A DNA stretch of 64,000 nt from Alkalibacterium sp. Its GTDB lineage: Bacteria > Bacillota > Bacilli > Lactobacillales > Carnobacteriaceae_A. Location of the stretch: assembly GCA_020832185.1 (NCBI GenBank), contig JAFIFE010000006.1, forward strand, positions 186,001-250,000, given 5' to 3'. The position numbers and the translations under genes are program-made. Every line of letters starts with the position of its first letter. The first letter of the stretch is position 1. Positions 23,471 through 34,630 of this stretch are shown here, one piece after another. Under the pieces are notes generated by a model. That model was not told the origin of the DNA. It ran no database searches and worked only from the letters and a program-made list of their open reading frames with translations.

Positions 23471-23520
23471 AAAAAAAGTCACTCACCATTATCTCTAAGA
23501 TAAAGTGAGTGACTCTTTTT
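23471..23520. terminator. Bidirectional terminator between pta and upp
   Basis: A 10-bp stem AGTCACTCAC (23477-23486) with GTGAGTGACT (23505-23514), inner TTATCT/AGATAA pairing, A7 on the left and T6 on the right. Confidence 0.92.
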
Positions 23521-24152
23521 TATTTTGTGCCGTATAATCGATCGCCGGCATCCCCGAATCCAGGAGTAATATAACTCTTCTCATTTAACCCGGGATCAAC
23601 TGCACCTGTAAATATCTTAACATCAGGATGCGCGTTGTGAACGGCAGCAATTCCCTCAGGAGAAGCAATAAGACAGATAAATTTGATATGTTTAGCCTTG
23701 CGTTTCTTTAAAGCATCAATGGCAGCAATCGCTGTTCCACCGGTTGCAAGCATTGGATCTACAATGAAGATCTCCCGCTTGTCAATGTCGCCTGGGAATT
23801 TAGCGTAATATTCTACAGGCTGTAACGTTTCGGGGTCTCTATACAACCCGACATGTCCGACCTTAGCTACAGGAATCATATTTAAAATCCCATTTACCAT
23901 GCCTAAACCAGCACGCATCAAAGGAATAATAGCCATCTTTTTGCCGCTTAATACATACGAAGATGTCTTGCACACGGGTGTTTCGATTTCGACTTTCTCT
24001 AAAGGCATTGATTTAGTCATTTCGTACGCCATTAGTGAAGAGACTTCCTCTACTAGTTCGCGAAATTCCTTTGATCCTGTTTCTTTCTTTCGGATCATTG
24101 TCAGCTTGTGCTGAAGCAGGGGATGATCAAAAATAAATACATCATTAGTCAA
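23520..24152 (-). CDS. upp: Uracil phosphoribosyltransferase
   Basis: A 210-residue enzyme that converts uracil and PRPP to UMP in pyrimidine salvage. Visible motifs are [21 protein letters not shown] near residue 75, [20 protein letters not shown] near 100, the PRPP loop [17 protein letters not shown] near 128 and the C-terminal uracil-binding region [17 protein letters not shown]. The start is a TTG preceded by GAAGGAGAGATTACG; no ATG in frame fits the family N-terminus. Single gene, divergent from the PucR regulator. Confidence 0.96.
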
Positions 24153-24239
24153 CGTAATCTCTCCTTCTTTTTACTAATAGTGTATGCTACAGTATAAAGC
24201 AATAATAAACAAGTAGATATTTTGAGAGAAGGTGTCAGG

Positions 24240-25892
24240 TTGAAAGTAACCGTCAAAGAGATTCTTACCCTGGAAAGTTTTCATGATGTAGAGGTGATGG
24301 CTGGTTTTAAAGGGATGAACAAAGAAGTCGAGAATGCATATGTCATGGAAGTCCCTGATATTTCAGCTTACGTCAGTGAGGGTGGATTACTTTTTACTAC
24401 ATTGTATCCTATCATCAATAACGAACAGGCGATGACTCATTTTATTACGGATTTAAAGGCACAGGGTTTAGCGGGAGTAGCCATAAAAGTCGGTCGTTAT
24501 ATTGACGACATACCTGATTATATGATCAGGCAAGGAGAGGCCCATGATTTTGCTGTTTTGAAATTACCCTCCAATGCCAATTTCTCAATATTGACTAATG
24601 ATATCCTGACTCGTTTGCTGGGGATGAAAACGAAGGAACTGGAGTTTAGAGAAAGCATATCAGCTAAACTCCATACCTTATTATTAAGCGGTGCCGATAT
24701 AAAAGATCTGGTGTCTTATGTATCTGTGATCACGGAAAAAGATATAATCGTCGTCAGCCAGCAGCTTAAGTATATTGACTCATCTATCGACAGCGAACTG
24801 ACTCATTTTACTATTCACGAGCCTGCTTTTAAAAAACTGAATGACGATTTCAGCTCTCGTGTGGAAGAGACGTCGTTAGTGGAAATCAATCACGACACAT
24901 ATCGGTATGATGAACTGATTATTCATCCAATTGATGCCGGGAACAAGATACTTGGGTACATCATCTTACTGGATAAGGAATCGAATCAGAAAGATAAAAC
25001 GGAGTACCTGAATGTGATTATTGAACAGGCCGTTATTCTGCTGGCTTTTCTACTGCAAAACAGGCAGGCGCTGCTTCAGAAAGAACGGAATTACCTTGAT
25101 AATTTCATACGAGATATGATCAATCATCAGTACTCCTCACAATCCGAACTGATACAAAAGGCCAAGGTATTTAAATGGAACCTGCATTTCCCCAATATTA
25201 TTATGCTGATCGACCTTGAAGAGCGTTCACCAGATAAAAGATTATCGAATTACTATCACATCCTTGACAGTGGGGTCATAACTGAAGAATTATCCCGTCA
25301 GTTAGAAATTTCAAAAGATAATTGTAAAGTTGCGCTATATAATAACCATATCATCTGTTTTGTCAGTGTGGCCTTGATCACCAACCTGACAACTAAATTA
25401 AACAAAGCAGGGGAGTCCATTTTGAATCGACTGAAAAAATTCAGTTTGTTGAGAGTGAGCTTTTCTAATGTGTTTTATGCGAGCAATGAAATAAAAAATG
25501 CCTATGAAGAAGCTGCCCTGGTTCAAACTATTTATAAAGATGTTGATTCTACTCACCATTTTGTCAAGTTTTACGCTAATTTAGGAACATATAAATTATT
25601 TCATTTAATCGAAAATAAAGACCCTCTGCATCAGTTTGTAGATGAGAAGCTGGGGCTTGTGCTGGTCAATGATCAAAAAAATGAAATGGAATTAATTAAA
25701 ACCTTGCAGACTCTGATAAAGAACAACTTGAATCTGAAGAAAACAGCAGGTGATTTGTTTATTCATTACAACTCTCTCAGGTACAGGGTGAGTAAACTGA
25801 AAGAGTTAGGAGTTAAGCTGGACGATGGAAATGAAATGACTGAAATTGCTGTAGCCTGTCAATTACTGACATATTTAAATGAAACTCAGTGA
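24240..25892 (+). CDS. PucR-family transcriptional regulator
   Basis: A 550-residue regulator. The N-terminal purine-catabolism (PucR_1) domain starts KVTVKEILTLESFHDVEV and has DISAYVSEGGLLFTT near residue 43. A central GAF/CdaR-like region follows, and the C-terminal PucR-type helix-turn-helix is LIKNNLNLKKTAGDLFIHYN followed by SLRYRVSKLKEL near residue 500. PucR proteins typically activate purine or allantoin breakdown genes in response to a metabolite. It directly precedes the ureido-catabolic cluster at 26.0-34.6 kb and is its probable regulator. An in-frame TTG at 24222 lies before AGAAGGTG, so the TTG at 24240 is chosen. Confidence 0.87.
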   Translation: MKVTVKEILTLESFHDVEVMAGFKGMNKEVENAYVMEVPDISAYVSEGGLLFTTLYPIINNEQAMTHFITDLKAQGLAGVAIKVGRYIDDIPDYMIRQGEAHDFAVLKLPSNANFSILTNDILTRLLGMKTKELEFRESISAKLHTLLLSGADIKDLVSYVSVITEKDIIVVSQQLKYIDSSIDSELTHFTIHEPAFKKLNDDFSSRVEETSLVEINHDTYRYDELIIHPIDAGNKILGYIILLDKESNQKDKTEYLNVIIEQAVILLAFLLQNRQALLQKERNYLDNFIRDMINHQYSSQSELIQKAKVFKWNLHFPNIIMLIDLEERSPDKRLSNYYHILDSGVITEELSRQLEISKDNCKVALYNNHIICFVSVALITNLTTKLNKAGESILNRLKKFSLLRVSFSNVFYASNEIKNAYEEAALVQTIYKDVDSTHHFVKFYANLGTYKLFHLIENKDPLHQFVDEKLGLVLVNDQKNEMELIKTLQTLIKNNLNLKKTAGDLFIHYNSLRYRVSKLKELGVKLDDGNEMTEIAVACQLLTYLNETQ

Positions 25893-25895
25893 GAA

Positions 25896-25929
25896 AAAAG
25901 CCTTGCAATGAATAGTTGCAAGGCTTTTT
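25896..25929 (+). terminator. Terminator of the PucR gene
   Basis: A 13-bp stem AAAAGCCTTGCAA (25896-25908) with TTGCAAGGCTTTT (25916-25928) and a T tail. It separates the regulator from the permease operon, which must have its own promoter. Confidence 0.92.
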
Positions 25930-25960: not shown

Positions 25961-26053
25961 ATGTATCAACTATACAATGATAAAGAATGAAGGACATGAT
26001 ATTATCTAGTCATACATAACACATGTCATATTAATCTAAAGAAGGAGCCTAGT

Positions 26054-27595
26054 ATGATCACCAATCAGGAAAAAATCAAGATATGGCAGCGGTCGGATAT
26101 TGATGGGTTTTTTGGACTATTTACAAATAACTTAACTAATTTACTTGTAATGGCCGGCTTATTATTAACTATCGGAATCCCGGCAGATATTGCACTGGGG
26201 ACCATATTACCGGCTGTCGGATTGTCTATCTTCGTCAGCAGTTTAATCTACTCTGCTATGGCTTATAAATTAGCAACAAAAGAAAACAGAAATACCGTCA
26301 CATCATTGCCATCTGGCAGCAGTGTGACACACATGTTTTTAATCGTGTATCTGATTATGGGGCCCGTTTATCAAAGTACAGGCGATCCATATATTGCCTG
26401 GTATGCAAGTCTGGCATGGGGATTTATCGAAGGGGTCATTGAGCTGTTAGGTTCAGTATTTGGAGAAAGGCTGAGGAAACTTATTCCACGTGCCGCAATG
26501 CTGGGATCTCTAGCAGGTGCCTCCATAACCTTCATTGCGATGACGCCTGCCATGCAGACATTCTATTTGCCGTATATCGGATTCATTTCACTCATTATTA
26601 TATTGCTTGGATGGTTTGGTAAAGTAACGTTTCCATTCAGAATTCCTATCGGGTTTATAGCAATCGTTATTGGAACACTGATCGGCTGGTCAACAGGTGT
26701 AATGGATAGTCAGTCACTTTTTACTTCCTTTTCTACCCTTACTATCTCACTGCCAAGTTTTTCTATATTGAGGATTGTAACCGGTTTATCAGAGGCTGCA
26801 CCATTCTTAGTCTCAGCAATCCCTTTAGGCATTTATAATATGTTCGAAACGATCGATAATATTGAAAGCGCGGAAGCAGCAGGGGATTCGTACAACACGG
26901 TACATACCATGCTGGCTGACGGATCAACAAGTATTCTGGCAAGTCTATTCGGCAGTCCTTTTCCAACAGCTGTTTTTATCGGTCATCCGGGATGGAAAGA
27001 AGCTGGGGCAAGAATTGGGTACACATTAGCGACAGGCTTTGGTGTACTGATCATAACCTGGCTGGGGTTGATTTCACTACTCCTCACGATCATTCCTATT
27101 GAAGCGATACTGCCTATCCTAGTCTATGTCGGATTAGTAATAGGGTCACAGGCATTTCAGGAAGTTGAAAATAAATACGCTCCTGCCGTTGTCCTGGCTA
27201 TTATTCCCTGGCTTGCCGACTGGGGGAGAACACTGATCGATAATACGCTAAGTGCAGCCAATTTAAACGCAACGAGTATCGGGTTCTCAACGTTAAGTAA
27301 CATGGGTGTCGAATACAGAGGAATGGTGACTTTAGGGTCTGGAGCTATAATAGTTGGGATGCTTTGGTCAAGTCTACTGTGTTTCATTATCGACCGCAGA
27401 TTTATAAGAGCGAGTATGGTTGGGCTGATCGGTGCGCTGTTTTCATTTTTTGGAATTATACACTCTCAAGCAGTCGGATTCAATGAAGGTGGTGAGTTAG
27501 CGTTAAGTTATATCATTGTCGCAGTTATTATAGTCGGTGTACATTTTTTAAACAAAAACACTAATGGAGGAATTACCTATGACAAAAAATTATAA
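26054..27595 (+). CDS. NCS2/AzgA-like permease for a purine-related or ureido substrate (1)
   Basis: A 513-residue integral membrane protein with about 12-14 hydrophobic segments. It begins with the DIDGFFGLFTNNLTNLLVMA segment and contains RAAMLGSLAGASITFIAM near 140 and ETIDNIESAEAAGDSYN near 270, shared with the second permease of this cluster. The pattern resembles xanthine/uracil-type NCS2 transporters of the AzgA-like side. The last codons overlap the next gene by 17 bp, including its ribosome site, so expression is coupled. Substrate is unproved; the cluster suggests a ureido or amide compound. Confidence 0.78.
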   Translation: MITNQEKIKIWQRSDIDGFFGLFTNNLTNLLVMAGLLLTIGIPADIALGTILPAVGLSIFVSSLIYSAMAYKLATKENRNTVTSLPSGSSVTHMFLIVYLIMGPVYQSTGDPYIAWYASLAWGFIEGVIELLGSVFGERLRKLIPRAAMLGSLAGASITFIAMTPAMQTFYLPYIGFISLIIILLGWFGKVTFPFRIPIGFIAIVIGTLIGWSTGVMDSQSLFTSFSTLTISLPSFSILRIVTGLSEAAPFLVSAIPLGIYNMFETIDNIESAEAAGDSYNTVHTMLADGSTSILASLFGSPFPTAVFIGHPGWKEAGARIGYTLATGFGVLIITWLGLISLLLTIIPIEAILPILVYVGLVIGSQAFQEVENKYAPAVVLAIIPWLADWGRTLIDNTLSAANLNATSIGFSTLSNMGVEYRGMVTLGSGAIIVGMLWSSLLCFIIDRRFIRASMVGLIGALFSFFGIIHSQAVGFNEGGELALSYIIVAVIIVGVHFLNKNTNGGITYDKKL

Positions 27596-28244
27596 AGTCC
27601 AAGCGAAACCCTATGCATTTGAATTTGATATTGAGTCTACAGCTTTAATGATTATAGATATGCAAAGAGATTTTCTGTATCCCGGAGGCTTTGGAGAAAA
27701 ACTGGGCAATGATGTATCTACAACTAACGCAATTATCCCAAGTGTACAGAAAGTCCTGGAGACAGCTAGAGAAAAGAATATGCTGGTCATTCACACAAGA
27801 GAAGGACACAGACCAGATTTGACAGATGTACCAGCAAGTAAGGCTAAGAGAGGCGGAGGAATCGGCGAACAGGGTCCAATGGGACGTATTTTAGTAAGAG
27901 GAGAATACGGGCACGATATTGTTGATGAGTTGCAGCCTATTGAAAATGAAGTCGTATTGGATAAACCGGGTAAAGGGGCATTCTATCAAACCGATTTAGA
28001 ATCGATCTTAAGAAATCGAAATATTAAGAGTCTGATCGTCACAGGCGTAACGACACATGTTTGTGTTCAGACGACCATTAGAGAAGCAAATGACCGAGGG
28101 TATGAATGTCTGATGCTCGAAGACTGTTGTGCAGCTTTTGATCAGAAGGATCATGATGATTCTATTCGAATGATTAATCAGCAGGGAGGAATATTCGGGT
28201 GGACGACCCCATCGGATTATTTGCTGAAAGAGTTAAACCAATAA
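27579..28244 (+). CDS. Isochorismatase-fold cysteine hydrolase, biuret hydrolase-like
   Basis: A 221-residue amidohydrolase. The family triad is visible: Asp27 (MIIDMQRDF), Lys129 (LDKPGKGAF) and Cys162 (TTHVCVQTT). Segments HTREGHRPDL (72-81), GPMGRILVRGEYGHDIV (99-115) and REANDRGYECLMLEDCC (168-184) resemble, from memory, the Rhizobium biuret hydrolase more than ureidoacrylate (RutB) or nicotinamide hydrolases. Biuret hydrolase cuts biuret to allophanate and ammonia; the true substrate here could be another carbamoyl amide. GGAGG just after an in-frame ATG at 27564 fixes the start at 27579. It sits between two related permeases in the carbamoyl cluster. Confidence 0.8.
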   Translation: MTKNYKVQAKPYAFEFDIESTALMIIDMQRDFLYPGGFGEKLGNDVSTTNAIIPSVQKVLETAREKNMLVIHTREGHRPDLTDVPASKAKRGGGIGEQGPMGRILVRGEYGHDIVDELQPIENEVVLDKPGKGAFYQTDLESILRNRNIKSLIVTGVTTHVCVQTTIREANDRGYECLMLEDCCAAFDQKDHDDSIRMINQQGGIFGWTTPSDYLLKELNQ

Positions 28245-28271
28245 AGTATGGAAATTAAAGGAGAGAACGGT

Positions 28272-29810
28272 ATGCAGAACAGTCATAAATCAACGCCCTG
28301 GTTTGTTAAGGGAGATGTGAACGGGTTTTTCGGATTATTCAGTAATGTATTAACAAACTTTTTAGCCGCTATTGGCTTGCTGGCAGCTATAAATGTCCCA
28401 GCAGATATTATTTATGGAAATATTGTCCCGGGAACTGCAGTAGCTGTCGGTCTGGGCGGAATCATATTTGCTGTTCAAACGAGACGCGCTTCGATCAAGC
28501 AGAATCATTCAAATATGACGGCATTACCTTATGGCTTAAGTGTGCCCCATTACTTTATAGTCGCTTTTGGAGTCATGCTGCCAGTGTACGCTATGACAGA
28601 TGACTGGGTCATTGCCTGGTCAACAGGAGTAGCATGGAATCTGATTCAAGGCATCATTATGACACTGGGCGCTTTTGTAGGTCCGTTTATTCAGAAATAC
28701 ATTCCTAGAAGTGCCTTGCTGGGATCCCTTGCCGGTTTAGCCATCACTTATATCGCCATGAACCCTATGGGAGAAATTTTTAGTACCCCTTATATAGGCA
28801 TGCTGACGCTAGTGATCGTGTTAGGCGGATGGATCGCTCATAAAAAACTTCCCGGAAACATTCCTGCAGGTTTGCTGGCAATTATCATTGGTATGCTGCT
28901 TGCCTGGGGAACGGGCTATATGGACTTCAACGCCGTTCAAGATGCGGCATCTGGATTCTCCATTTCACTTCCATCATTTGCTTTTTCACAGTTAATGACA
29001 GGATTTGCTTATATTTCCCCATTTTTAGCTGCTGCTATTCCGTTAGCTATTTATGATTTCTTAGAAAGTTTAGACAATATTGAAAGTGCTGAGGTAGGTG
29101 GAGATAAATACCCTACTGGAATGACGTTACTTGTACCGGGATTGCTGACTATTTTAGGATCGTTTTTAGGTAGTCCTTATCCTACTATCATATACATTGG
29201 TCACCCCGGATGGAAAGCAGCAGGTGCGAGAGTCGGGTATTCACTAGCAACAGGAATAGGTGTGATTCTATTAGCATTTGTTGGACTGATGCCTTTAGTC
29301 ATGTCTATCATTCCGCTGGTAGCCTTGCTTCCAATCCTTGTGTATATCTCCATGACGATAGGAACTCAGGCTTTCACAACAGCCAATCCGAAACATGTGC
29401 CCGCTATGATCTTAGGGCTTATGCCATTTATCGGCAGCTTTGTTATTCTACAAATCAACAATGCACTCACAGCAGCTGGGACGAGCGCTAATGAAGTAGG
29501 GCTTCAAGTCTTGAGAGATAACGGCGTTTACTATGAAGGATGGAGTGTTTTAGGGGCCTCTGATATTTTAGTGTCCATGATGCTGATTACCATTGTCATC
29601 TTCCTTATCGATCGTAACTTCAAAATCGCCGCGATGTACAGCATTCTAACTGCAGGCCTTTCTTTCTTCGGCTTTATACACGCAGGTGAAATCGGCTTGG
29701 GAACAGGTGCAAGTGCAGCTCTAGGATACGGCACAATGGCTTTAGGGTTACTTGTATTCCACTTTTACAAACATCCGGATGAAAAGAACGCACTAAATCA
29801 GGAGAGTTAA
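28272..29810 (+). CDS. NCS2/AzgA-like permease for a purine-related or ureido substrate (2)
   Basis: A 512-residue paralogue of the permease at 26054, with the same opening (GDVNGFFGLFSNVLTNFL), RSALLGSLAGLAITYIAMNP and LESLDNIESAEVGGDKY. About 12-14 membrane segments. Two related but clearly diverged carriers flanking one hydrolase suggest either two substrates or uptake of one compound and export of a product. An ATG at 28248 is in frame, but AAAGGAGAG follows it and supports the ATG at 28272. The next gene begins 12 bp after the stop. Confidence 0.78.
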   Translation: MQNSHKSTPWFVKGDVNGFFGLFSNVLTNFLAAIGLLAAINVPADIIYGNIVPGTAVAVGLGGIIFAVQTRRASIKQNHSNMTALPYGLSVPHYFIVAFGVMLPVYAMTDDWVIAWSTGVAWNLIQGIIMTLGAFVGPFIQKYIPRSALLGSLAGLAITYIAMNPMGEIFSTPYIGMLTLVIVLGGWIAHKKLPGNIPAGLLAIIIGMLLAWGTGYMDFNAVQDAASGFSISLPSFAFSQLMTGFAYISPFLAAAIPLAIYDFLESLDNIESAEVGGDKYPTGMTLLVPGLLTILGSFLGSPYPTIIYIGHPGWKAAGARVGYSLATGIGVILLAFVGLMPLVMSIIPLVALLPILVYISMTIGTQAFTTANPKHVPAMILGLMPFIGSFVILQINNALTAAGTSANEVGLQVLRDNGVYYEGWSVLGASDILVSMMLITIVIFLIDRNFKIAAMYSILTAGLSFFGFIHAGEIGLGTGASAALGYGTMALGLLVFHFYKHPDEKNALNQES

Positions 29811-29822
29811 AGAGGTGAGTTC

Positions 29823-30719
29823 ATGGATATAGTCATTGACAGTATGGATGCCAAACTGCCTGCTTTGATGAATGCTGCACGAGAACGTGAGGTGGTAGGG
29901 AGTGTGGTTAATATCTTCGATAAAGTAATCAATGTCGAAACCAGCCATCCCACCGCATTAATCACCATCGCTGGCGCTAACGTGATACGAGCACCCTATA
30001 TGCTGAAAATCACAAATGAGAAGGCCTTTGAGGAGTTGAAACGGACTGTAAATATTGGGGACATTGTCCGGTTTAGAAAAGACGGCGTCATGAGTCTCAA
30101 TACGGACAGACTGATTATCCGTTCTTCATCCCTATGGGACTGTGCAATGCATTCACACCCAGCAGATGAACTCGAGATGACCAATCTACAGTATGAAATC
30201 AATCATTTCCTGAAAAACGAAGGGAAGCCAGGAGGAATATTAAATGCCTTCTTATCCCAGTCGTCGATCATAAACGGGCAGCCTCTATTTTTATCAATTT
30301 ATGATAAGTACTTTAATCGACTGATCACTCAGCTTTCCCAGACCTTTACGGGAGATAATCTGAAAAAATTCATAGGTTTGGGTGTCGGATTGACACCCTC
30401 CGGAGATGATTTTATAGTCGGTCTCTTAGCCGCATTACGCAGCAGTGAGGCCGGATATCATTTCGAGAAAACTATCAAAAGAGAGTTGACTAAAGAAAGT
30501 ATTGCCAACAAAACGACCCGAGTCAGTAGTCATATGATCAGCTACGCACTGGACGGTGATTTCAATGAAGCCTTGCTTAATCTCCTGAATGGCCGAGATC
30601 CACTTCGTACGTCACTGATGCAGGTAAACAGCATTGGATCCACTTCAGGAACGGATATGCTGGCTGGGGTCAGTTTTGCTTTAGAACACTTACTAAAAGA
30701 CTTGAAAAGGAGAGAATAA
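29823..30719 (+). CDS. allH: DUF2877 protein, AllH (YlbF)-like subunit of oxamic transcarbamylase
   Basis: A 298-residue soluble protein of the DUF2877 family, with the family hallmark GLGVGLTPSGDDFIVGLLAAL near residue 185 and NSIGSTSGTDMLAGV near 268. In E. coli the homologue YlbF was renamed AllH and is needed, with FdrA (AllF) and YlbE (AllG), for oxamic transcarbamylase activity, which phosphorolyses oxalurate to oxamate and carbamoyl phosphate. All three are adjacent here. The ATG follows AGAGGTGAG. The gene symbol is by analogy with E. coli; the substrate in this organism may differ. Confidence 0.78.
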   Translation: MDIVIDSMDAKLPALMNAAREREVVGSVVNIFDKVINVETSHPTALITIAGANVIRAPYMLKITNEKAFEELKRTVNIGDIVRFRKDGVMSLNTDRLIIRSSSLWDCAMHSHPADELEMTNLQYEINHFLKNEGKPGGILNAFLSQSSIINGQPLFLSIYDKYFNRLITQLSQTFTGDNLKKFIGLGVGLTPSGDDFIVGLLAALRSSEAGYHFEKTIKRELTKESIANKTTRVSSHMISYALDGDFNEALLNLLNGRDPLRTSLMQVNSIGSTSGTDMLAGVSFALEHLLKDLKRRE

Positions 30720-30720
30720 A

Positions 30721-32274
30721 TTGACTATAAAAGTTTTGATTGAAAAAAATGCTTACCATGATTCGGTTACCTTAATGTCACTCTCAGGTAAAGTAATGGC
30801 GAAAGAAGGAGTGATCGAAGCCGTCGTTTCGATGGCTACTGAAATGAACAAAGAGTTGTTGAATAATATTGGGCTGGTAACTGAAGAAAGCCAGTCTGCT
30901 ACAGAAAATGATTTGATCATAGCCGTTAAGGCTGAAAATGAGCAGGTAATAGAAGACGTGTTCACTTTTGTTGATGAAGAATTAAATGCAAAAAAATCTG
31001 GAAAAAATAAAAAAGGGAATCAGGCGGTCACAACATTTAATGCAGCATTAAATGCACTCCCTGAAGCCAATCTTGCAGTCATCTCAGTGCCAGGGGAATA
31101 TGCTGCCAGAGAAGCACGACTGGCTCTAAATAAAGGGCTGAATGTCATGTTGTTCAGTGATAACGTTTCACTTGAAGATGAAAAAGAGCTGAAGGAAATG
31201 GCAGTTGAAAAAAATCTGCTGGTTATGGGACCGGACTGCGGGACGGCTATGATCAATAATACTGGGCTTTGTTTCGCTAATAGTGTGAAGAAAGGCGGCA
31301 TAGGCTTAGTGGCGGCTTCAGGTACTGGTCTGCAGGAAGTGGCTGTTCAAATCGACCGCATGGGGTATGGGGTCACACACGCAATCGGAACAGGTGGCCG
31401 TGACTTAAGCGAAGCGATTGGCGGCATTATGATGCTGGAAGGTCTGAAGAGACTAGAGGCGGATGAAAACACTAAGGTGATTACACTGATTTCTAAGCCG
31501 CCGGCTAAATCAGTTCAGGAAAAAATACTCCATCAGGTAAAAGAGTCTACAAAGCCAGTAGTGGTGTGTTTCTTAGACGGTGATAAAGATGAAGTGGAAG
31601 CATCAGGTGCTCGATTTGCCTCTAATTTAATTGATGCTGCCAAACTGTCGATCAAGGCACTGGATCAATCAGCTGTCTTTAATGATGACACAAATGAACA
31701 CGTGACTGCGCAGATCAATGAGGATATCAGCAAATTGAGTGACTCTCAGCAGTTTATCAAAGGCCTGTTTTGTGGAGGGACATTAACTGCCGAAGCATTA
31801 TCCGTCCTTAGAGATAAAGTAGGAGCCGTTAAAAGTAATGTGGCAAAGAAAGCGGAAGAAGTTCTGTCAGATACCAGCTTGAGTGATACGCATATTTTAC
31901 TTGATATGGGTGACGATGAATTTACAAAAGGCAGACCTCATCCGATGATCGAACCTAACTTGAGAAACGAACGCATTATTAAAGAGGCTGAAAATCCAAA
32001 CACAGCTGTCTTGCTTCTGGATTTTGAATTAGGATATGGGGCACATATAGATCCAGTTGGGGAATCAATTGACACTTTGTCGGAAGCAAAAAATAGTGCC
32101 GAAAAAAATGGACGACACCTTTCCATCGTAGCCTATATCTGTGGAACAGCCAAAGACAAGCAAGGGTTATCTGAACAGGAAAATAAATTAAGAAACGCAG
32201 GAGTTATTGTTGCTCAAAGCAATGCTGAAGCAAGCGTAATAGCTGCATCAATAACAGACAGGGAGGTCAACTAA
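30721..32274 (+). CDS. allF: FdrA-family protein, AllF-like transcarbamylase subunit
   Basis: A 517-residue protein of the FdrA family, related to acyl-CoA synthetase/succinyl-CoA synthetase folds. Recognizable segments include the N-terminal VLIEKNAYHDSVTLMSLS, AVISVPGEYAAREARLALNKG near residue 117, VMGPDCGTAMIN near 166, GLVAASGTGLQEVAVQIDRMG near 194 and RPHPMIEPNLRNERI near 405. It starts with a TTG 2 bp after the DUF2877 stop, preceded by AAAGGAGAG, and its stop overlaps the next ATG (TAATG). With neighbours it matches the three-part oxamic transcarbamylase. Slightly shorter than the E. coli protein. Confidence 0.8.
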   Translation: MTIKVLIEKNAYHDSVTLMSLSGKVMAKEGVIEAVVSMATEMNKELLNNIGLVTEESQSATENDLIIAVKAENEQVIEDVFTFVDEELNAKKSGKNKKGNQAVTTFNAALNALPEANLAVISVPGEYAAREARLALNKGLNVMLFSDNVSLEDEKELKEMAVEKNLLVMGPDCGTAMINNTGLCFANSVKKGGIGLVAASGTGLQEVAVQIDRMGYGVTHAIGTGGRDLSEAIGGIMMLEGLKRLEADENTKVITLISKPPAKSVQEKILHQVKESTKPVVVCFLDGDKDEVEASGARFASNLIDAAKLSIKALDQSAVFNDDTNEHVTAQINEDISKLSDSQQFIKGLFCGGTLTAEALSVLRDKVGAVKSNVAKKAEEVLSDTSLSDTHILLDMGDDEFTKGRPHPMIEPNLRNERIIKEAENPNTAVLLLDFELGYGAHIDPVGESIDTLSEAKNSAEKNGRHLSIVAYICGTAKDKQGLSEQENKLRNAGVIVAQSNAEASVIAASITDREVN

Positions 32275-33692
32275 TGAACACTAACATCTTGAATGAAGAA
32301 CTTCGCGTCATCAACATTGGAACGTCTACATTTAAAACAGATTTAGATTTGCAGAATGTCGAATCTGTGCAATATGACTGGCGACCTCCTGCAGGTGGAA
32401 ACAAGGAATTAATTGAAGCACTGGACTTTTTGCAGGATAAAGAGGAAGTTGAAAAAGCGAATCAGGAAACCATTAAAGTCATCAAGGAGGCTCACCCCTT
32501 CTTAGTGGATATCGATCAGGCAATCACTGCAATACCAGGTATGCACGATAAACTGATTCTACATTCCGGGCCGCCAATAAAATGGTCAGACATGTGTGGA
32601 CCAGTTAAAGGCGCAATTATAGGAGCTTTAATATACGAGGGCTTAGCTGACGATGCGGAATCTGCAGAAGTACTGGCAGGTTCTGGAGAGATAGACTATG
32701 CACCCGCTCATCAGTACAGTGCGGTTGGACCAATGGCAGGAATTATCTCACCCTCGATGCCGGTTCATATAATTGAGAATCGGACCCATGGAAATAAAGC
32801 GTATTGTACGGTAAACGAAGGTCTAGGCAAAGTACTCAGATTTGGAGCCAACTCACCAGAAGTACTCGAACGTCTGAAGTGGATCGAAACAGTGTTTGCG
32901 CCTGCATTAAAACAAGCATTGAAACTGACAAACGGAATCGATTTAAAATCAATTACTTCTCAGTCCCTGCACATGGGAGACGAATGTCATAACCGAAATA
33001 AAGCGTCTACCAGCCTGTTCTACAGAGAAATAATCGACTATTTCCTTCAAACAGATTTGAACAAAGCTGAACTAAGAGAAGTCACGGCATTTATTAAAGA
33101 AAACGAACACTATTTCTTGAACCTGTCAATGCCAGCAAGTAAATCAGCGCTGGATGCGGCTCACGGAATCAAGTACTCAACTATTGTTACCACAATGGCA
33201 CGTAATGGAGTAGAGTTTGGGATTAGAGTAAGTGGATTGGATAAAGACAAATGGTTTACAGCGCCAGCTAACTTCGTAAAAGGAATGTTTTTCCCGGGGT
33301 ACACAGAAGAAGATGCTGCACCTGATTTAGGGGATAGTACGATTACCGAAACGATGGGCATTGGCGGATTTGCGATGGGGGCATCTCCGGCAATTGTTCA
33401 GTTCGTCGGTGGTGAAGTCCAGGATGCGACTAATTACAGTGCGCAAATGTATGAAATAACGGCAGGAGAAAACAGTAATTATTCTATACCGGCGCTCAAC
33501 TTCAGAGGCGGAGCCTTCGGAATCGATATCAGAAAAGTGATAGATACAAATATTTTACCCGTTATCAACACTGGAATGGCTCACAAAAAAGCAGGCGTTG
33601 GTCAGGTAGGGGCAGGAATCGTTCATCCTCCAGTGGCCTGTTTTGAAAAGGCAATGATTGATTTTGTAAAAGAATATAAGGGGGGCAACTGA
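32274..33692 (+). CDS. allG: DUF1116 protein, AllG (YlbE)-like transcarbamylase subunit
   Basis: A 472-residue DUF1116 protein. Its start region INIGTSTFKTDLDLQNVES and DWRPPAGGN near residue 37 are typical, as are HSGPPIKWSDMCGPVKGAIIG near 97, SQSLHMGDECHNRNKASTS near 230 and GGAFGIDIRKVIDTNI near 412. E. coli YlbE, renamed AllG, is one of three proteins required for oxamic transcarbamylase. Stop and start codons overlap on both sides, so stoichiometric translation with FdrA and carbamate kinase is likely. Confidence 0.8.
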   Translation: MNTNILNEELRVINIGTSTFKTDLDLQNVESVQYDWRPPAGGNKELIEALDFLQDKEEVEKANQETIKVIKEAHPFLVDIDQAITAIPGMHDKLILHSGPPIKWSDMCGPVKGAIIGALIYEGLADDAESAEVLAGSGEIDYAPAHQYSAVGPMAGIISPSMPVHIIENRTHGNKAYCTVNEGLGKVLRFGANSPEVLERLKWIETVFAPALKQALKLTNGIDLKSITSQSLHMGDECHNRNKASTSLFYREIIDYFLQTDLNKAELREVTAFIKENEHYFLNLSMPASKSALDAAHGIKYSTIVTTMARNGVEFGIRVSGLDKDKWFTAPANFVKGMFFPGYTEEDAAPDLGDSTITETMGIGGFAMGASPAIVQFVGGEVQDATNYSAQMYEITAGENSNYSIPALNFRGGAFGIDIRKVIDTNILPVINTGMAHKKAGVGQVGAGIVHPPVACFEKAMIDFVKEYKGGN

Positions 33693-34630
33693 TGAGCAAA
33701 ATTCTTATTGCCCTGGGCGGAAATGCTTTAGGGGAAAATGCAAAAGAGCAACGTGAATTAGCTGTGAAGGCAGCTTCAGCGATAACAGACATGGTTGAGC
33801 AGGGACATGACATCATCTTGTCTCACGGAAACGGGCCGCAAGTAGGAGCGATCAATTTAGCTTTTCAGGCCTACGCTAAGTCAAAGTCAGATGACTCCTT
33901 TGAGATGCCCTTTCCAGAATCTGGTGCCATGAGTCAAGGGTATATTGGGTACCATTTGCAGAATGCATTAAGAACAGAGTTGCTGAACAGAGGCATCACA
34001 AAATCAGTCGTTTCTCTAGTCACTCAGGTCATCGTCGATAAAGAAGATGAGGCCTTCAAGAACCCGACCAAGCCTATTGGGCCGTTTTACACTAAAGATG
34101 AATCTGAAAAGTTATCTTCTCAAACAGGTGAGACTTATATAGAAGATTCAGGTAGAGGCTATAGAAAAGTGATTCCTTCTCCCTCTCCAGTTAGAGTGGT
34201 CGAGGCAGATATGATGAAAGAACTGATCAACAATGGGCATGTAGTGATTGGTGCAGGAGGTGGGGGAATTCCTGTTATTGAAAATGATAAAAATCAGTTG
34301 ATTGGGGTCGAGGCAGTCATTGATAAAGACAACGCCAGCGAAAAGCTAGCTGAAGAGCTGGATGTTGATTTCTTCTTCATTCTAACAGCGGTTGACCGTG
34401 TAGCTGTCAATTTTGGTAAACCTAATCAGAAGGAACTGGAAAGTCTAAGCGTAGAAGAAGCGCGCAGATACAGTAAAGAGGGTCACTTCCCTGAAGGAAG
34501 CATGTTACCGAAAGTACAGGCGGCTATAAAATTTGTGGAATCAAAACCAGGAAGAAAAGCGATTATTTCTTCACTGGAGAAGGCAAAGGAAGCAGTCCTT
34601 GGAAAAACGGGTACCGTCGTTTATATGTAA
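33692..34630 (+). CDS. Catabolic carbamate kinase
   Basis: A 312-residue amino-acid-kinase-fold enzyme that transfers phosphate from carbamoyl phosphate to ADP, yielding ATP, CO2 and ammonia. Signatures are KILIALGGNALGENAKEQ near residue 3, ILSHGNGPQVGAINLAFQA near 43, VIGAGGGGIPVIEN near 186 and VEAVIDKDNASEKLAEEL near 206. It overlaps DUF1116 by TGATG. There is no arginine deiminase or ornithine transcarbamylase nearby; the partner is the FdrA cluster, as with AllK (YbcF) of E. coli. It provides the energy-yielding last step of the pathway. Confidence 0.9.
   Translation: MSKILIALGGNALGENAKEQRELAVKAASAITDMVEQGHDIILSHGNGPQVGAINLAFQAYAKSKSDDSFEMPFPESGAMSQGYIGYHLQNALRTELLNRGITKSVVSLVTQVIVDKEDEAFKNPTKPIGPFYTKDESEKLSSQTGETYIEDSGRGYRKVIPSPSPVRVVEADMMKELINNGHVVIGAGGGGIPVIENDKNQLIGVEAVIDKDNASEKLAEELDVDFFFILTAVDRVAVNFGKPNQKELESLSVEEARRYSKEGHFPEGSMLPKVQAAIKFVESKPGRKAIISSLEKAKEAVLGKTGTVVYM

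Follow-up and report, generated by a model that had tools for sequence, protein, structure and literature searches.

The window analysed here, a 64,000-nucleotide stretch of Alkalibacterium sp. (assembly GCA_020832185.1, contig JAFIFE010000006.1, positions 186,001 to 250,000), carries an operon whose products are predicted to degrade a ureide and conserve energy from it as ATP. Downstream of a gene for a PucR-type regulator (pucR, 24222..25892, forward strand; PF07905 at 97.2 bits against a cut-off of 33.5, with PF13556 and PF17853) and a terminator-like hairpin, seven tightly packed genes follow on the same strand. They encode permease-1 (26054..27595), an isochorismatase-like hydrolase (27564..28244) that overlaps it by 32 bases, permease-2 (28248..29810), an AllH-like subunit (DUF2877, 29823..30719; PF11392, 80.7 bits, cut-off 25), an AllF/FdrA-like subunit with a TTG start (30721..32274; NF004760, 525.9 bits, cut-off 433, plus PF00549, PF02629 and PDB entry 3dmy), an AllG-like subunit (DUF1116, 32274..33692; PF06545, 324.7 bits, cut-off 27) and carbamate kinase (arcC, 33692..34630; TIGR00746, 382.3 bits, cut-off 358.25). 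The adjacency of the three subunit genes to one another, with the kinase beside them, identifies an AllFGH-type transcarbamylase. A preliminary description had proposed this same operon, from pucR to the kinase, and all eight genes were recovered; its statement that allantoin genes are missing from the operon was borne out as well. It had also asked whether the arrangement recurs, and the order permease, hydrolase, permease, AllH, AllF, AllG, kinase was found again elsewhere, for example in L002, L005-L008 and L010 (L and G numbers designate the loci and genomes compared). The genome of the window itself (G000; 2.64 Mb, 28 contigs, 95% complete) has one AllG.

The closest solved relatives of the hydrolase are the triuret hydrolase TrtA (262.9 bits, 57.7% identity over aligned segments) and the biuret hydrolase BiuH (239.0 bits, 52.8%), a comparison that alone decides little. 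Residues that separate TrtA from BiuH are named in the TrtA paper (PMC7948467). At ten diagnostic positions (24, 35, 41, 72, 129, 132, 160, 162, 202 and 205 in TrtA numbering) the window enzyme reads DFNEKKHCQI, TrtA DFNEKKECQI and BiuH DYYEKKDCQV. The catalytic Asp24, Lys129 and Cys162 of TrtA and its substrate residues Glu72, Lys132 and Gln202 are all kept, as are three of the four residues of the second-shell set (Phe35, Asn41, Glu160, Ile205), the exception being Glu160, which is replaced by His. The corresponding BiuH set (Tyr35, Tyr41, Asp160, Val205) is absent, the window enzyme having Phe, Asn, His and Ile. These residues rule out biuret hydrolase as a name for it; with the NCBIfam biuret hydrolase model it scores 282.6 bits, below the cut-off of 370. 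The window hydrolase is thus a predicted TrtA-type enzyme, with His160 as the main doubt. The operon had been described as having no known entry enzyme, which no longer holds, since the hydrolase is that enzyme.

The TrtA-type enzymes of L002-L049, from Bacillota, Mycoplasmatota, Spirochaetota and one actinomycetotal locus, all share the window residue set including His160; the exact TrtA set is found in the TrtA-type rows of L050-L081, on an E. coli plasmid (L133) and in Photobacterium (L134), and the BiuH-type set in further rows of the alignment, some of them from Bacillota. Counting rows with duplicates included, AllG accompanies the His160 form in 42 of 52; the other 10 have neither AllG nor the allophanate hydrolase AtzF, and no row pairs this form with AtzF. 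For the Glu160 form the rows divide into 11 with AllG only, 11 with AtzF only, 2 with both and 10 with neither. A motif-based count of TrtA-type enzymes, used below, does not include L048 and L051, two loci assigned to the TrtA type by the alignment.

Neither permease matched a Pfam family at E 0.001, and a sequence search of the PDB with a four-row permease profile gave no match. Permease-2 belongs to the family of permease-1, to which it is 42% identical. An AlphaFold2 model of permease-1 (mean pLDDT 89.1) resembled SVCT1, UraA and SLC26 type folds, with TM-scores of 0.43-0.57 by query length among the 50 matches listed, which suggests a UraA-like fold at modest TM-scores; the fold does not give the substrate, and we propose permease-1 as a triuret or ureide importer. 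Within the fetched stretches this permease family accompanies 72 of 81 TrtA-type loci (by motif) and none of the 18 loci that have a cyanuric acid hydrolase (CAH) and lack TrtA. Another transporter, TR12, is confined to loci with CAH and occurs in 11 of these 23. The type of transporter follows the entry enzyme. Since the permease family is so regular a companion and the gene order recurs, the gene set of the operon is not a product of chance. As an observation in its own right, permease-1 and permease-2 represent a family of uncatalogued transporters that accompany TrtA-type hydrolases.

The transcarbamylase subunits have their best-known counterparts in E. coli, where AllFGH is an oxamic transcarbamylase, assayed with carbamoyl phosphate and oxamate (PMC11326118). 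In order to place the window proteins relative to that enzyme, a tree was built of 80 AllG rows (open reading frames of more than 350 residues from loci with long flanks, leaving out three fused or long ones of more than 900 residues and identical copies); several of its rows have long branches or odd composition. On this tree the nearest AllG to that of the window comes from Alkalibacterium putridalgicola (84% identical). Nine allantoin-linked rows form one separate group (support 100/100), which also holds the unlabelled L118. The subunit boundary differs too. Allantoin-linked loci have an AllF of 555-594 residues and an AllG mostly of 419-424 (also 442, 465 and one of 1002), whereas in TrtA- and CAH-linked loci most AllF have 504-550 and most AllG 460-522 residues; short AllG occur three times in TrtA-linked loci and six times in L165, L167 and L168, and one AllG has 1126 residues. 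The last 52 or so residues of E. coli FdrA correspond to the N-terminus of the window AllG, whose residues 3-54 align with positions 504-555 of the FdrA model and match 3dmy as well; the window thus has the short form of AllF and the long form of AllG. Finally, AllG position 277 is Asn in all 66 TrtA- or CAH-linked rows and Thr in all nine allantoin-linked rows, with Ser in seven and Thr in one of the other eight; it is the cleanest of five positions passing a filter, and the residue table holds filtered positions only. The equivalent residue of E. coli K-12 AllG is Thr225, and the position is a predicted site of specificity. In tree group, in subunit lengths and at position 277, the window AllG falls outside the allantoin type.

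Two short AllG genes, placed far apart on the tree, occur in each of the CAH loci L165, L167 and L168; one copy adjoins the allantoin group (95/73, not firm) and the other lies elsewhere. In E. coli K-12, yahE-yahJ (L135 3926-10508) contains yahE, yahF, yahG and yahI, which resemble a third type of AllHFG-kinase set; YahG groups with Bacilli loci L124-L127, L129 and L130, and yahJ next door encodes an amidohydrolase. In Solirubrobacter (L052, L053 and L054) a TrtA-type hydrolase and permease lie close to an AllG homologue that is very distant.

We also searched, at curated cut-offs, 43 genomes that contain the operon or part of it. Allophanate hydrolase (AtzF), allantoinase and the ureidoglycolate dehydrogenase AllD were each found in none, the genome of the window included, and urease in one. 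Among 14 control genomes, one reached the cut-off for allophanate hydrolase, two for allantoinase, one for AllD and three for urease. The best matches in the genome of the window were 259 bits against 358 for allantoinase, 154 against 496 for AllD and 206 against 511 for AtzF, and the allophanate hydrolase C-domain PF21986 was not found there. Matches below the cut-offs were common for allantoinase (42 of 43) and allophanate hydrolase (38 of 43, both at E <=0.001) and fewer for AllD (10 of 43 at E <=1e-20), the strongest AllD homologue being that of G408, the genome of L013 (397 bits against 496). We take these for related enzymes, as a presumptive assignment. Metagenome assemblies make up many of these genomes, and incomplete ones may be among them; an absence in any single genome is therefore weak evidence.

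These data bear on the view that the operon encodes an ordinary oxamic transcarbamylase working on imported oxalurate, with a hydrolase that acts on oxamate, as in the second hypothesis of the preliminary description, or on another amide. The identity of the window AllF (41%) and AllG (46%) to the E. coli proteins, the PucR type of the regulator, and the activity of E. coli AllFGH on oxamate and carbamoyl phosphate together with its requirement for oxalurate breakdown (PMC11326118) speak for it. Against it stand the AllG group, the subunit boundary and position 277, all unlike the allantoin type, the triuret-binding residues kept in the hydrolase, the ability of CAH to take the place of the hydrolase on the AllHFG core (see below), and the lack of AllD and allantoinase above cut-off in the 43 genomes, the AllD homologue of G408 notwithstanding. 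Furthermore, none of the fetched allantoin-linked AllFGH loci carries the hydrolase, and the Glu160 form adjoins AtzF in 11 loci without AllG, an indirect argument in that the His160 form of the window does not. We regard this view as improbable. The standard allantoin pathway, with oxalurate supplied by allantoin genes elsewhere in the genome and a hydrolase that proves to be an unrelated amidase, had been named as the outcome that would overturn the preliminary description; that check, run in part through the allantoinase and AllD searches, disfavours it.

The argument from CAH is as follows. A CAH-family gene is present in five loci found through the hydrolase (L007, L020, L040, L046 and L047). 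The two that were scanned, from L040 and L007, score 543 and 540 bits with the CAH model NF052395 (cut-off 360), and against the PDB the L040 gene gives 492 bits for CAH and 316 for barbiturase. Identity as a barbiturase is ruled out by NCBIfam for both and by the PDB scores also for L040; the label of L020, L046 and L047 rests on clustering with these two. A CAH search of 398 Bacillota genomes then returned 13 matches, 9 above cut-off, of which the 11 long ones were fetched and two weak fragments excluded. AllF and AllH lie near CAH in 9 of the 11 loci, and AllG in 8 of those 9, the ninth (L163) being at a contig edge. Eight of the nine have no isochorismatase-like hydrolase. Of the remaining two, L164 combines CAH with a BiuH-type enzyme and allophanate hydrolase, and L166 lacks both AllG and AtzF. 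L112, from a survey of AllG in Bacilli, is a further CAH-AllHFG-kinase locus without isochorismatase-like hydrolase. Among the nine CAH loci with AllG and without TrtA, the kinase lies within the stretch in five (L112, L158, L159, L160, L162).

On the AllG tree the CAH-linked rows are dispersed among TrtA-linked ones: L162 groups with L025 and L041 (100/99), L158-L161 with L031 and L034 (100/100), and L112 lies inside a set of 35 rows that are otherwise TrtA-linked (98/93). CAH and TrtA both release carboxybiuret (PMC7948467, PMC6219798). Two unrelated entry enzymes with a shared product are thus exchanged beside one downstream AllHFG core. A cytosine-deaminase-like amidohydrolase also occurs next to CAH in L040 (4245-5417), L047 (2721-3890) and L162; as a guess, it might feed ammelide or ammeline into cyanuric acid.

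To see how AllG is distributed relative to the hydrolytic pathway, we counted 101 loci with a hydrolase of the window family or CAH, a set partly chosen by similarity to the window. L011 (a second copy from the genome of L010) and L119 and L131 (taken to be identical with L039 and L033) were dropped, and the near-identical L015-L017 were kept; AtzF was called at amidase scores above 200 bits and AllG above 150 bits. AllG only was found in 59 loci, AtzF only in 18, both in 2 and neither in 22 (Fisher 3e-7), and a BiuH-type hydrolase in 2 of 61 AllG loci versus 13 of 18 AtzF-only loci (Fisher 3e-9), both values ignoring the common descent of loci. The fetched stretch holds the kinase in 51 and AllF in 56 of the 61 AllG loci. 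Among 398 evenly drawn Bacilli genomes, 11 have the hydrolase family at E 1e-40; three of these (G000, G037, G141) also have AllG, in seven (G061 and six more) the neighbourhood holds CAH, a BiuH-type enzyme and AtzF, and G220 combines TrtA-type and BiuH-type enzymes in a stretch with neither AllG nor AtzF.

Taken together, we consider it probable, though well short of certain, that the operon serves to break down triuret or a close polyureide with a yield of ATP, and that in this route AllFGH would be a carboxybiuret/allophanate transcarbamoylase feeding the carbamate kinase. The permeases would import triuret, and the TrtA-type hydrolase would convert it to carboxybiuret (H2N-CO-NH-CO-NH-COO-) with release of one ammonia. 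AllFGH would then transfer the terminal carbamoyl group of carboxybiuret to phosphate, giving carbamoyl phosphate and allophanate, and probably cleave allophanate in the same way into carbamoyl phosphate and carbamate, with carbamate kinase making ATP from the carbamoyl phosphate. In sum, triuret would yield 4 NH3, 3 CO2 and up to 2 ATP. Carboxybiuret resembles oxalurate (H2N-CO-NH-CO-COO-), a known substrate of E. coli AllFGH. Each step is proposed on the basis of homology, residues and context, and from these we infer on what substrate and in which direction the window AllFGH acts, how much ATP results and what the permeases carry. The first hypothesis of the preliminary description, with import of a biuret-like compound, its cleavage to a carbamoyl acid and phosphorolysis of that acid to carbamoyl phosphate, fits this evidence in outline; the part that did not stand is the biuret type of the hydrolase. 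Because the hydrolase is of triuret type, the first product is probably carboxybiuret and allophanate the second.

Several observations weigh against this proposal. Glu160 of TrtA is a second-shell residue whose change to Asp halved the activity (PMC7948467), and since the window enzyme has His at this position its natural substrate may not be triuret. The kinase lies outside the fetched stretch in 10 of the 61 AllG loci, and in four of the nine CAH loci with AllG and without TrtA (L161, L165, L167, L168). Neither AllG nor AtzF is nearby in 22 of the 101 loci, many of them cut by contig ends or GC-rich with poor picking of open reading frames, and L003, with 10 kb on each side, has only permeases and the His160 hydrolase, with no AllHFG or kinase at the locus. 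L016 and L075 hold a BiuH-type enzyme plus AllG, L056 and L075 both AllG and AtzF, and in L165, L167 and L168 all six AllG genes are of the short form. In addition, the half-life of carboxybiuret, which decays to biuret, is about 20 minutes (PMC7948467), so that biuret could be the real substrate of AllFGH, giving urea.

In a scheme built on that instability, the hydrolase or spontaneous loss of CO2 would give only biuret or allophanate, and AllFGH would act once, for one ATP, either on biuret and phosphate to form carbamoyl phosphate and urea, or on allophanate and phosphate to form carbamoyl phosphate and carbamate. The presence in L016 of a BiuH-type enzyme beside AllFG and the kinase is in line with it, as is the finding that Rhodococcus BiuH acts on triuret and biuret alike (PMC7948467). 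However, the window enzyme lacks the BiuH-type residues, such an enzyme occurs in few AllG loci (the 2 of 61 counted above), and with urease in one genome of the 43 the urea formed would be wasted. We consider this scheme unlikely, although it deserves more weight than uptake of oxalurate.

The other difficulty is a connection to pyrimidines. Upstream of pucR and on the reverse strand lies a second upp gene, a paralogue (uracil phosphoribosyltransferase, 23520..24152; TIGR01091, 280.9 bits, cut-off 208.35), for which the triuret route has no need; this unexplained link also points away from that route. Another upp copy exists elsewhere in the genomes of the window, of L002, L005, L006 and L008, and of several Acholeplasmataceae. 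Besides the window, 18 fetched loci have upp close to the operon. It takes three positions, among them one at the operon's 3' end in Acholeplasmataceae-type loci and a divergent one in Bacilli. The operon-linked copies form two separate groups, and L175, a second upp copy of one genome labelled housekeeping beforehand, falls in the Bacilli group. L015, L016 and L017 have, after the hydrolase, upp and then a deaminase-like gene (PF00383). The hydrolase might naturally act on another ureide, for instance one derived from pyrimidines, with upp and the UraA-like permeases as marks of a pyrimidine link: upp recurs near the operon in two separate clades, the enzymes of L002-L049 have His160, and the permease fold is predicted to be UraA-like. 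No known pyrimidine-degrading enzyme was found inside the operon among the annotated neighbour clusters, most other clusters being unannotated, and the ring-opening gene of five loci belongs to the CAH family, the two scanned scoring as CAH. We see a slim chance for such a substrate.

Two minor elements precede permease-1. The hairpin after pucR (25895..25929, forward strand) has 15 pairs followed by a T-rich stretch; as the number of terminator-like sites over the region (8) is close to that expected (7.9), its length is what argues for it. A weak candidate operon promoter (25977..26005, forward strand) has 9 of 12 consensus matches and a TG ahead of the second hexamer, in a scan of the region that found 37 sites versus 28.0 expected (sd 5.7).

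A plasmid search with the hydrolase revealed a related cluster in E. coli (L133 9983-17193), comprising genes for the hydrolase, AllH, AllF, AllG, the kinase, an allophanate hydrolase C-domain, an NCS1-type permease and a LysR regulator. The C-domain (PF21986) is free-standing in the E. coli plasmid and Photobacterium versions, and phmmer detected a similar one in L051, L062, L066, L069 and L081. The C-domain of allophanate hydrolase removes CO2 from N-carboxycarbamate, and its free-standing form fits a pathway of carboxylated ureides. In the complete enzyme the N and C domains act in sequence (PMC5770610). DNA like the cluster is present in 1547 of 5426 complete E. coli genomes, mostly at 90-95% identity, with at least 80% of the query covered in 1543 genomes; 1488 places are chromosomal and 127 on plasmids. 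In BL21(DE3) the seven genes from hydrolase to permease have no internal stops and the hydrolase carries the TrtA motif, while in K-12 MG1655 ysgA and metE are directly adjacent at the corresponding site and the cluster is missing. L208 4001-11214 is a chromosomal counterpart of this TrtA-type AllHFG-kinase cluster. A paper on expression in urinary E. coli (PMC7439467) deals with genes for allantoin and not with the BL21-type cluster.

A broader proposal, for which we would put the chances somewhat below even, is that such AllFGH homologues are carboxybiuret and allophanate transcarbamoylases in general, and that triuret and cyanuric acid are fermented for up to two ATP each through a modular phosphorolytic core with interchangeable entry enzyme and transporter, spread in gut, sediment and soil bacteria and in more than a quarter of complete E. 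coli genomes. Triuret is present in urea fertiliser and human urine (PMC7948467), and cyanuric acid has been reported as a Paramecium secretion (PMC12342508). The pathways described for the two compounds end in hydrolysis (PMC7948467, PMC6219798); a phosphorolytic branch would, unlike these, conserve energy. It would also provide a function for the cluster with similar DNA in those 1547 E. coli genomes, BL21 included, and extend the substrates of the AllFGH enzyme family, described only recently, beyond a single class.

With the AllFGHK of the E. coli allantoin pathway, the window operon shares the three subunit families and the kinase, and the formation of ATP from carbamoyl phosphate. It differs in its AllG group, in having a short AllF and a long AllG instead of the reverse, and in the nearby gene, a TrtA-type hydrolase or CAH in place of AllB, AllC, AllD or AllE. 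The triuret pathway of Herbaspirillum (TrtA, BiuH, AtzF; PMC7948467) has a TrtA-type entry enzyme in common with the operon, which contains AllFGH and carbamate kinase instead of BiuH and AtzF, and His instead of Glu160. The pathways for cyanuric acid (AtzD then BiuH, or AtzDGEHF; PMC6219798) have carboxybiuret as a common intermediate; as described there they are hydrolytic, whereas AllHFG with the kinase would conserve energy.

In the open-licence literature, supplements excluded, we found no account of TrtA or CAH joined to AllFGH as one route, and a search on biuret in the rumen yielded nothing of use. The nearest case is that of nitrifiers (PMC12625717, 2025): comammox bacteria have biuH, trtA and atzF beside allFGHK, and ammonia-oxidising archaea have biuH with allFGHK, a co-location shared with the window. 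The sections of that paper on these genes assign them to two distinct pathways, one for triuret/biuret and one for oxalurate, leave allophanate to atzF or a gatA-like gene, and contain no joined route. The gene families listed for region GR29 of E. coli BEN2908 (PMC12928451, 2026) look like the cluster of BL21 and pCh101, and are described there through homologies to RutB, a cytosine permease and oxalurate genes. As for the chemistry, E. coli YgeW/YqeA link phosphorolytic cleavage of a ureido compound to carbamoyl phosphate and ATP (PMC12507026), as the route proposed here would; AllFGH is without similarity to YgeW (PMC11326118).

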